DNA of 41,777 nt from contig OMVX01000020.1 of the NCBI GenBank assembly GCA_900314605.1, positions 1 to 41,777 of the forward strand, written 5' to 3'. Positions within the stretch are counted from its first letter, which is position 1, and every line of letters begins with the position of its first letter. Of the stretch, positions 17,663 through 41,615 are shown in pieces. The notes beneath the pieces are model-generated. The model saw only the letters and a program-made list of their open reading frames with translations, had not been told where the DNA came from and did not search any database. The position numbers and the translations under genes are program-made. This stretch comes from an uncultured Methanobrevibacter sp. Lineage in GTDB: Archaea > Methanobacteriota > Methanobacteria > Methanobacteriales > Methanobacteriaceae.

Positions 17663-18460
17663 CTAGTTTTCAACATCAATAAAATTCACAATACTTTTTC
17701 TAAAATATTTTGTAGAAATAATACCAATTATTGCTCCAAAAATAGTGAAAAATATTGGTGCATATCCGTTAAACAGGTTATAAGAAAATTGGAATCCCAC
17801 TGAAATTTCTACAATAATATTACATAAAAAACCTAATACAAGTCCAGTTATAATACCTAAAAGACCACCATTAATCAAATCTTTAAATGAACCAAAGATT
17901 GAAACTACTATAAATAAACTTATAAAAAATCCAAATGGATATAAATCGATGGTTTGAGTAAAAAATCCGAAAATATAGGAAAATAATAATGATAGTACAA
18001 CTGAAATAACAATAGAGATTATAGATAGAACAAACAATTTTTTTATCCTAATTGTTTTTTTAATTCCATCAAAAGATTGAATATCGATGTTTAGAGAATT
18101 TCCACATTCAATACAATATTGAGAATCTTCATCAGAAATTTTTGTTTTACAATGAGGACATATTTTATATTCTTTTGATATTGTTTCCTCATTTACATTA
18201 TCTGATTGGTCTACTACATCATCAGCTTTAGAAGATTCATTTTTACTGCTTTCATCTTGTGAATCTTTTTTGGATGATTCTACATCATTGTCTTCCTCTT
18301 TTTTTATTTTTGCACCACATTTTGGACAAAAAATATTGTCTTTTTCTAATTGACAATTACATGAAGGACAAAATAAATTTTCATTTTTTGTCCCGCAATG
18401 TGGACAATAATTTTGATTGTCTATTTCTTTACCACATTTTTGACATTCTACCAATTCCAT
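17663..18460 (-). CDS. Multi-zinc-ribbon membrane protein
   Basis: About 265 residues; no specific family recognised beyond zinc-ribbon domains. The N-terminus stacks CxxC pairs (CQKCG, CPHCG, CPSC, CPKCG; residues about 7-54), then an acidic Ser/Asp linker, another ribbon (CPHCKTKISDEDSQYCIECG, about 100-120), and four hydrophobic helices from about 140 to the end. The ATG at 18460 overlaps its ribosome site; TTG 18454 is an alternative with better spacing. An 18-base A-run just after the gene (T-run on its own strand) may terminate it. Its promoter region was split from its divergent neighbour by an insertion sequence. Confidence 0.75.
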   Translation of the reverse strand: MELVECQKCGKEIDNQNYCPHCGTKNENLFCPSCNCQLEKDNIFCPKCGAKIKKEEDNDVESSKKDSQDESSKNESSKADDVVDQSDNVNEETISKEYKICPHCKTKISDEDSQYCIECGNSLNIDIQSFDGIKKTIRIKKLFVLSIISIVISVVLSLLFSYIFGFFTQTIDLYPFGFFISLFIVVSIFGSFKDLINGGLLGIITGLVLGFLCNIIVEISVGFQFSYNLFNGYAPIFFTIFGAIIGIISTKYFRKSIVNFIDVEN

Positions 18461-18510
18461 CACCCCACTATAAAACTTTTATGTATACAATTTTAGTTTA
18501 ATAATTAATA

Positions 18511-18530
18511 AATTTTTATATAAAGTTTTT
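18511..18530. repeat. Target-site direct repeat, left copy, with TATA box
   Basis: AATTTTTATATAAAGTTTTT, identical to 19782-19801 on the other side of the insertion sequence. It contains a TATA box readable on both strands. This copy is about 50 bp upstream of the minus-strand zinc-ribbon gene. Confidence 0.85.
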
Positions 18531-19783
18531 AGGGACCTGAATTTTTTCAAATAAAATTCAACATAATTGCCCTTATTTTTATAATTTATCATGTTCCTTT
18601 AAGACTGTTTGTAAAAATACAATTTAAAATTACTCTTTTTAATAAAAAAAAGTCTTTAAATCGTTAAATTTAAATAGTATGTGTTATATATATTTATTTG
18701 TGATTAAAAATGAAACACAGATTAAATTTAGATATTAAAGACCTGAATTATAGTTTGTTGAAAGAAATATTTAAAATTATGGATTGCAGAGAATCTTCTG
18801 AAATTTTAGCTTCCTGTGGTTTAAAAACATTGATAAACAAGTATTTACCTTTAAAATCATATTTATCAGTATGTTCTTTGGTTTAGACATTCTATTCATA
18901 TTGAATGAGCTTGAATCTAAAGAAAAACTTCGCAAATACATTAATATTTCTGAAGTTTTAAGTGCTGATCAAGTTTATAAAAATTTTTCGCTACAAGATT
19001 CAAGAGAACTTGTTAAAGCATTAAATCGTGTTTTAAATGGAATAAATCGTGTTAAAAGAAGAGAAAAAAAGACTTTTATTGTTGATGCAACACCAGTGGA
19101 CTTGGATATTAATTTCCATAGAAATAAAAAGACTAAAGAACATCTAAAATCATTGAATTTAAAATGGAGTTATTCTTCTTCTAAAGGATTTTATATTGAA
19201 TTTAAAGCAACAGTTATCATTCATTTCGATAGTATGAATCCTGTTTCTATTTTAATTCATTCTGGAGCTCCCAATGATGCAAAACTTTTTGACGAAATTA
19301 TGGAAAATCTTCAAAAAAGACGTATAATTCAAAAAGGAGATACATTAATTTGATAAAGGATATTATAGCTATAAAAACTACCAATTAGGAATTAGTAAGT
19401 ATAAAATCATTCCTTTTATTTTCCCCAAAGATAATTTCAAAAGAAATAAATTAAATGACCAATTATCCTATCCATTATCCTCATTTATCAAAACAAAGAA
19501 AATTAAAACTGAAAAAAGATTTTTTGAAAAGTTAAAACACAAATTATTAAATAAATTAGATGTTTGGAAAAATTTTAAACCAATTAGAGGAAAAATAGAA
19601 GATTTTTTCAAATTACTCAAACAAGGACTTAACTTAAGAGAAATACATAAATACACACCAAAATCTGTCGAAAAAACAGTATATTTAAATGTATTTTTAG
19701 GAGCCTTAATTATATCACAAGGGTTTAAATCAAAAACAGCCATACAACAATTATCTGAGAAATAAAAATTCAGACCCCTAAAA
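18527..19783 (+). mobile_element. Insertion sequence with DDE transposase, IS4/IS5-like
   Basis: About 1.26 kb. The ends are inverted repeats: TTTTAGGGACCTGAATTTTT at the left matches TTTTAGGGGTCTGAATTTTT (reverse complement of the right end) with two differences. The flanks carry a perfect direct repeat of 14-20 bp, depending on whether the terminal Ts belong to the element. It encodes one DDE-type transposase broken by two frameshifts. I cannot name the exact IS family. It sits between two divergent membrane-protein genes. Confidence 0.85.
18710..19765 (+). pseudogene. Transposase with two frameshifts
   Basis: Three consecutive reading frames make up one DDE transposase of about 350 residues. 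The first runs from ATG 18710 to a TAG at 18884-18886. The second, open from about 18868 to 19353, carries the first catalytic Asp in IVDATPVDLDINFH. The third, from about 19349 to the TAA at 19763-19765, carries the second Asp in FDKGYYSYKNY and the Glu in KIEDFFKLLKQG. The second break looks like loss of one T in ATTTGAT. With both shifts the protein should be inactive unless ribosomes slip; programmed frameshifting is possible but would be needed twice. Confidence 0.85.
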
Positions 19784-19801
19784 TTTTTATATAAAGTTTT
19801 T
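19782..19801. repeat. Target-site direct repeat, right copy, with TATA box
   Basis: AATTTTTATATAAAGTTTTT, identical to the left copy at 18511-18530. Here the TATA box lies about 50-60 bp before the plus-strand gene at 19846, a suitable place for its promoter. Confidence 0.85.
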
Positions 19802-19845
19802 ATATTAAAAAAATAAAAGATAATAGTACCAAAAGGGGTGATAAA

Positions 19846-20892
19846 ATGAAAATGAATTATCATATTTTATTTCTTATAGTTATAATAGGGATTATTTCTG
19901 TAGGTGTTGTTGGTGCTAATGTATTTAATAGTGATTCTTCAATGAAAAAAGAAGTTTTTGATGGTATTACTGTCTCTGTACCAACTGATTCAGAATTTGT
20001 TAAAACAGGAGAAAATGTTTATAAAGATACTAATTATGGAATACAAATTAATACTTTTAAAAACAATAATTCCATGATTAAATACTTAAAAAACTCTAAA
20101 AAATCAAAAATTATTCCAGTTGAAAATCAACCTCCTCAATCAGTTGCTTTTAAAAAAGGCCAATCTTTTAATATTTTAGTTACTAATGGTATTGAAGGAG
20201 TTGCAGTAGGTTCTAAAGATAAAGAACTCACTTCAAAAATAGCTAACAAAGTCACGTTTAGTAATAATCACCATAGTGAAAAACCTGCAGGAGTTCCATT
20301 TATAAGACAACCTATGACTGTAGAAAAAGATTATGATTTAATAATGTTACTTGTTGGAGAAGTAGACAATAAAGTATTTAATACTCTAATATTAGATAAT
20401 ATTCTTCTAAATGTTACAGCAAGTTATAATGAAAATAGATATGAACCATTTGATATGGGAGTTGATGATTCATCTGATGGATCAGGTACATATGTCTCTG
20501 ATATTAAAAATGAAGATGATTTAAAAGATGCATTAAGTGATGCTAATACCTCTTCAAATGATAATTCTGTTGATTCTAACAGTGAAGACATAAGTAATAG
20601 TCAAGATAATCTTGTTCAGTCTAGTGATAATAACCATAAAACCCAAAAGACTCAATCAGGTAATCCATCCAATAGTGTTAGTTCTAGTAACCAACAAGGG
20701 AATTTATCCCTTAGTGAATGTGAACAATTAGTACATGAACAAATATTAGTTAACAATCCTGATTTAAGAATAGGTGAATATTACAATGTTTCAAACGGTT
20801 ATGTTTTCATTATTGTAGACAATTTAAATGAAACTGTTAATCAGGTTACTGTTAATGCATTAACTGGGGAAATTACACCTATCTCTAGTTAA
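19846..20892 (+). CDS. Membrane-anchored extracellular protein, PepSY-like C-terminus
   Basis: 348 residues; no specific family recognised for the body. Residues about 5-25 form a hydrophobic signal or anchor (ILFLIVIIGIISVGVVG). A folded region of about 200 residues follows, then a Ser/Asn/Asp linker at about 215-290 (disordered, probably a cell-wall spacer). The C-terminal 55 residues (ECEQLVHEQIL to VTVNALTGEITPI) resemble a PepSY-type domain: helix, then strands ending in a DxxTGxI-like turn. The start ATG has GGGGTGAT three bases upstream. Its promoter TATA is in the repeat at 19782-19801. It is divergent from the zinc-ribbon gene beyond the insertion sequence. Confidence 0.75.
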   Translation: MKMNYHILFLIVIIGIISVGVVGANVFNSDSSMKKEVFDGITVSVPTDSEFVKTGENVYKDTNYGIQINTFKNNNSMIKYLKNSKKSKIIPVENQPPQSVAFKKGQSFNILVTNGIEGVAVGSKDKELTSKIANKVTFSNNHHSEKPAGVPFIRQPMTVEKDYDLIMLLVGEVDNKVFNTLILDNILLNVTASYNENRYEPFDMGVDDSSDGSGTYVSDIKNEDDLKDALSDANTSSNDNSVDSNSEDISNSQDNLVQSSDNNHKTQKTQSGNPSNSVSSSNQQGNLSLSECEQLVHEQILVNNPDLRIGEYYNVSNGYVFIIVDNLNETVNQVTVNALTGEITPISS

Positions 20893-41250: not shown

Positions 41251-41615
41251 GTATTATAATAATAACTACTCTTTATTATTTTAATTATTTTAAAAACTAT
41301 ATTTTTGCATATTAGTTATAATAAGAATTATTAAATAAATTTAACAACAAACTTTTCAAATTAATTAAAGAAAAAATTGAAAACTTTTTAAAATAACGAA
41401 TAATGACTCTACTTGAGATAAATATAAAATACAAGAAAACAAATTAAAAAAAAAACATTTATTTAAATGTGATTATAAAATCATTAACATATCACAATGA
41501 TTAACTTAAAAGCTATAAATATTATCTAAAAACTGAAAAATAAAACCTTCAAATATATAATTTTAAATTATTTTTTTGTTACAAATTTTAGAAATGAAAA
41601 AAGTAAAAAAAAAAG
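41251..41615. other. Non-coding gap after cbiH
   Basis: No gene seen. TGTGAT (41468-41473) and ATCACA (41491-41496) form a short inverted repeat, and AATCATTAAC/AATGATTAAC lie inside and beside it. The significance is unknown. Confidence 0.4.

Follow-up and report, generated by a model that had tools for sequence, protein, structure and literature searches.

A decayed ISM1-like insertion sequence with a 20-bp direct repeat in the divergent control region of two genes of a Methanobrevibacter-type archaeon

An insertion sequence (IS) that enters the space between two divergent genes raises the question of what becomes of their promoters. The stretch of DNA analysed here (the window, 41,777 nucleotides) is contig C64 of a genome of 2.37 Mb in 103 contigs. 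It carries an IS between a minus-strand zinc-ribbon gene and a plus-strand gene starting at 19846 (Table 1). Both flanking genes are intact, and the transposase is decayed. We consider it rather probable that an ISM1-like IS split a divergent control region of about 120 bp, duplicated 20 bp that included the TATA box of the right-hand gene, and later decayed.

Table 1. Features of the divergent locus (positions are those of the window)
Feature	Position	Strand	Basis or remark
Zinc-ribbon gene, start revised to TTG 18454	17663..18454	-	ORF; Pfam Zn_Ribbon_1, DZR; relatives start MVKC/MVEC
Left copy of the 20-bp direct repeat, AAATTTTTATATAAAGTTTT	18510..18529	.	22-nt match extends to 18531
Possible BRE and TATA facing the zinc-ribbon gene (AAAAAC TTTATATA)	18517..18530	-	Sequence; inside left copy
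Decayed ISM1-like insertion sequence, 1251 bp	18530..19780	+	Ends TAGGGACCTGAATTTTT / AAAAATTCAGACCCCTA, as in other copies of the genome
Transposase remnant (DDE_Tnp_1), three frame segments	18707..19759	+	tblastn with intact relative; alignment; Pfam PF01609 (intact relative)
Right copy of the 20-bp direct repeat	19781..19800	.	22-nt match extends to 19802
TTTATATA facing the 19846 gene, at -60	19786..19793	+	Within the conserved range of relatives, -52 to -71
Second TATA-like box, TTTATATTAAAAAA, at -47	19799..19812	+	Only first bases inside repeat
348-aa protein with N-terminal membrane/signal segment, divergent partner of the zinc-ribbon gene	19846..20892	+	ORF

The limits of the IS are given by its ends. 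These are inverted repeats of 17 bp with the form TAGGG(AC/GT)CTGAATTTTT, and they are common to other copies in the genome; they place the IS at 18530-19780 and thus set the flanking duplication at 20 bp. Allowing up to two mismatches, the 17-bp end is found at 26 places in the genome, and the reversed pattern at one. The transposase is 81% identical to that of an intact relative but is frameshifted, with breaks near 18832 and 19350 when the intact relative is used as tblastn query; the relative itself matches PF01609 (1.9e-18). A chimeric origin of the window IS was considered and dropped, as sliding identity, with minus-strand loci left out, gave a closest relative without a clear switch. 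Part of another copy of the IS, from its right half and 68% identical, lies near the end of the window (41314-41547). In genome G000, many contigs break about 95 bp inside IS copies (contig ends L012-L017, L080, L082, and L083), so the IS is multicopy there and has probably been active recently. One G000 copy (L078/L003, C5:3806-5308) has grown to about 1.5 kb through an inserted stretch close to its left end, part of which is IS end in inverted orientation; the copy still has an intact 8-bp duplication, TAAAATTT.

On either side of the IS stands a copy of a perfect direct repeat of 20 bp, or 22 nt if the terminal TA of the IS is counted. The window has exactly two occurrences of the 22-nt sequence AAATTTTTATATAAAGTTTTTA, at 18510-18531 and 19781-19802. 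An earlier note had reported the repeat as the 20-mer AATTTTTATATAAAGTTTTT at both IS ends, and its coordinates (18511-18530 and 19782-19801) and sequence are correct. The 13-mer TTTTTATATAAAG is found at just these two places, while dinucleotide shuffling gives an expectation of 0.09. The repeat holds TTTATATAAA, a perfect palindrome, so its TATA box does read on both strands as had been claimed; TTTATATAAA is present in about 0.7% of upstream 22-mers of this genome. The two copies had also been placed at about 50 bp from either gene. They are near both, but the distances differ: the repeat edge is 43 bp from ATG 19846 and 55 bp from TTG 18454.

The second of these distances depends on a revised start codon. 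Read from TTG 18454, the zinc-ribbon protein begins M-V-E-C-Q-K-C-G, and the TTG stands four bases past a Shine-Dalgarno sequence (GGGGTGAT, 18466-18459), which mirrors the GGGGTGAT-AAA-ATG of the right-hand gene. Where the start of a relative can be read, the protein begins with MVKC or MVEC, and TTG 18454 is therefore the most likely start. Searches of Pfam and NCBIfam with the 348-aa protein of the right-hand gene gave no match. By eye, its C-terminal stretch is PepSY-like.

The length of the repeat was compared with that in other copies of the element; for this, the sequences just outside the IS ends were paired within each of six genomes. At contig ends of the window genome, flank pairs match over 9, 8, and 8 bp (C23/C33 AAATATCTT, C37/C61 AAGTAGAA, and C38/C51 AAAATATT), and pairs in the other genomes match over 8-10 bp. 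Copies with both ends in one contig have duplications of 8 bp (C5, described above), 8 bp (G100, AAATAGTT), and 7 bp (G064). Most other full-length copies have flanks without a match, which probably results from recombination or decay. Matches of at least 8 bp were found in 16 of 633 within-genome pairs (window copy included) vs. 22 of 2607 between-genome pairs; A+T-rich 8-mers match by chance, so single flank pairs are weak evidence, while the excess and the AANNNNTT pattern are clear. Over 79-81 ends, this target preference consists of TT next to the IS, almost without exception, and of AA at -8/-7, the latter in 59% of ends vs. 16% in the background. The presence of the IS in a promoter is most simply explained by its preference for AANNNNTT in A+T-rich DNA. 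The window copy falls outside the range of 7-10 bp, and its 20 bp is the only longer duplication found. The repeat was first described as an ordinary target duplication, a description that does not hold because the IS family normally duplicates 7-10 bp.

Two origins of the 20-bp repeat can be put forward. A single aberrant transposition with a staggered cut of 20 bp, about two helical turns, is a good possibility that falls short of being probable. It agrees with a perfect repeat that abuts both IS ends with zero offset, and there are precedents in IS1549 and IS1634, distantly related DDE elements with duplications of between 8 and 514 bp and no known mechanism (PMC2266710). Against such a cut, no other copy exceeds 10 bp among the ends surveyed in the six genomes or among full-length copies.

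Slightly less likely is a composite repeat, made by two 8-bp events or by one event into a tandem repeat. In one route, insertions with 8-bp duplications (AAATTTTT and AAAGTTTT) would have occurred independently at sites 12 bp from each other and then been joined by recombination between IS copies. The other route would be an 8-bp insertion into a prior 12-bp tandem repeat (ATATAAAGTTTT twice), followed by one substitution. Both would keep to the duplication length of the family, and the first eight bases of the repeat (AAATTTTT) and the last eight (AAAGTTTT) each match the 8-bp target pattern, with a likelihood ratio for both ends of about 14, which was computed after the site had been seen and is weakened by being post hoc. 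The left flank of the copy in C28 and the right flank of that in C85 have 9 bp in common, and IS copies probably do recombine. The cost is that two rare events are required, or else a tandem repeat and a mutation that happened to give a perfect 20-bp match.

Relatives with an undivided region indicate how the locus looked before the insertion. At least nine species of a related genus (g5) have the zinc-ribbon and 348-aa genes side by side in divergent orientation; where measured, the start codons are 98-169 bp apart. Without the IS and one of the two repeats, the gap in the window would be 120 bp. These relatives belong to another genus (about 40-62% protein identity) and are not mutually independent, so the empty site itself is one that we infer. 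The conserved pairing suggests a functional link between the two products, a zinc-ribbon membrane protein and an exported protein of 348 aa.

None of the three other species of the window's own genus has the pair at this place, between Pus10 and L21e. The search for a conspecific empty site gave one contig relative (L024, 87% Pus10 identity), in which the pair is gone except for the zinc-ribbon tail. In this sister species (G002; L024:9297-10749), about 45 bp of the zinc-ribbon 3' end are kept at the same locus, where they adjoin an older, inverted IS remnant of the same type (66% identical). The pair is therefore older than the split of the window species and G002, and in G002 it was probably lost through a deletion associated with an IS. 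The piece kept by G002 also led us to drop the idea that the window species alone had gained the pair horizontally. The comparison with an uninterrupted site that the earlier note called for thus gave a partial answer: the g5 relatives have a short undivided gap with a conserved TATA-like element, and no conspecific site was found.

When about 400 kb of the window genome was searched de novo for promoter motifs, no TATA motif stood out from an order-2 background, and the boxes were therefore judged by conservation. The comparison set was the reconstructed empty site and nine relatives (10 species), the right-facing range searched was -38 to -80, and counts of TTTATAT were tested against 500 dinucleotide shuffles. 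Right-facing TTTATAT is present in nine of the 10 species, at -52 to -71 (shuffle mean 1.7; none of the 500 reaches nine). Left-facing TTTATAT is present in two, a count reached by 78 of the 500 shuffles and thus at chance level. The element lies 61 +/- 7 bp from the start of the right-hand gene and 71 +/- 19 bp from that of the left-hand gene (51 to 105 bp), so no single core element was found whose spacing is conserved for the two genes alike (sd 7 bp right, 19 bp left). Conserved spacing and orientation tie the TTTATAT element to the right-hand gene.

It was originally proposed that one symmetric TATA box had served both genes and that each received a copy, with nothing lost. The palindrome TTTATATAAA agrees with this, as does the BRE-like AAAAAC upstream of TTTATATA in the left copy, toward the zinc-ribbon gene. 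In G101 and G113, which rank among the closest relatives by protein identity, there is one near-palindromic TTTATATTATAAA, which might work in both directions. Symmetric promoters are also known to drive divergent transcription in prokaryotes, according to a passage of PMC12825309 that cites Warman 2021. The proposal is nevertheless less likely than not, because spacing and orientation are conserved for the right-hand gene only, as indicated by the chance-level count of left-facing elements and by the wide spread of distances between the conserved element and the left-hand gene. A further point against a shared box is the second TATA-like box of the right-hand gene (19799-19812), most of which lies beyond the repeat.

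A TATA box that arose by chance in A+T-rich DNA and is used by neither gene is less probable still. Among the 120-nt upstream regions of this genome (85% A+T), 49% have TATATA, 33% have TTTATAT, and 61% have a 10-bp palindrome, so such elements are common; the right-facing element, however, is conserved in presence and spacing across species. The least credible reading is that an IS family whose duplications are normally strictly one-turn (8-10 bp) made a clean two-turn duplication of 20 bp over a symmetric TATA box, and that a divergent promoter was thereby split losslessly into two that both work.

We therefore return to a Methanobrevibacter-type archaeon in which an ISM1-like IS would have inserted into the control region of two divergent genes and then, with time, decayed. 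The insertion would have left two copies of an A+T-rich 20-bp piece with a TATA-like palindrome. In related species the element is one conserved TATA box, positioned to serve the right-hand gene, and since a copy still stands there, this gene would have kept its promoter. The zinc-ribbon gene would have been left with a copy of the same TATA box and an A-rich, BRE-like stretch upstream of it, which it may use. The archaeal TATA box is pseudo-symmetric, and its direction is given by the BRE. The AAAAAC-TTTATATA of the left copy is for this reason a plausible promoter for the zinc-ribbon gene, whether or not it was used earlier. The idea that the insertion gave each gene its own copy is borne out to the extent that a TATA-like element now stands in front of both. 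The boxes may be in use, both genes may still be expressed, and the insertion may have been tolerated.

If so, the locus would illustrate in a concrete case how an IS can enter a divergent promoter without harm, since the bases it duplicates are the promoter core. The preference for A+T-rich AANNNNTT sites suggests that the IS is steered into methanogen TATA regions. Apart from the repeat length, the case is mostly an ordinary one of an A+T-seeking IS in an A+T-rich promoter; a 20-bp repeat in a family that duplicates 7-10 bp poses a small question on target spacing.

Several known systems can be compared with this locus. Like symmetry-based bidirectional promoters (Warman et al. 2021, as described in that passage of PMC12825309), it has a palindromic core between divergent genes, but the orientation of the element is not conserved both ways across relatives. 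With IS1549 and IS1634 it has in common an abnormally long direct repeat, here in one copy alone; elements of the IS1634 family are larger (1.5-2 kb), and the match to the NCBIfam IS1634 model is far below cut-off. The IS4 family (PMC2266710, "IS4 family goes genomic," 2008) also has DDE_Tnp_1 and a duplication of about one helical turn, as in the other copies of our element, and by eye the R(3)E(6)K spacing is present in its transposase. The Y of YREK is not in place, however, and the ends differ (TAGGGG). With the NCBIfam IS4 model (NF033592) the score was 51.5 bits, below the cut-off of 115 bits. ISM1 of Methanobrevibacter smithii (ISNCY/ISM1 group) is about 1.2 kb long and makes an 8-bp duplication. 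The window copy departs from ISM1 in the 20 bp of its repeat and in its frameshifted transposase. The element resembles ISM1, as described, in host group, length, and a single DDE_Tnp_1 transposase, and most of its copies, where readable, carry an 8-bp duplication as well.
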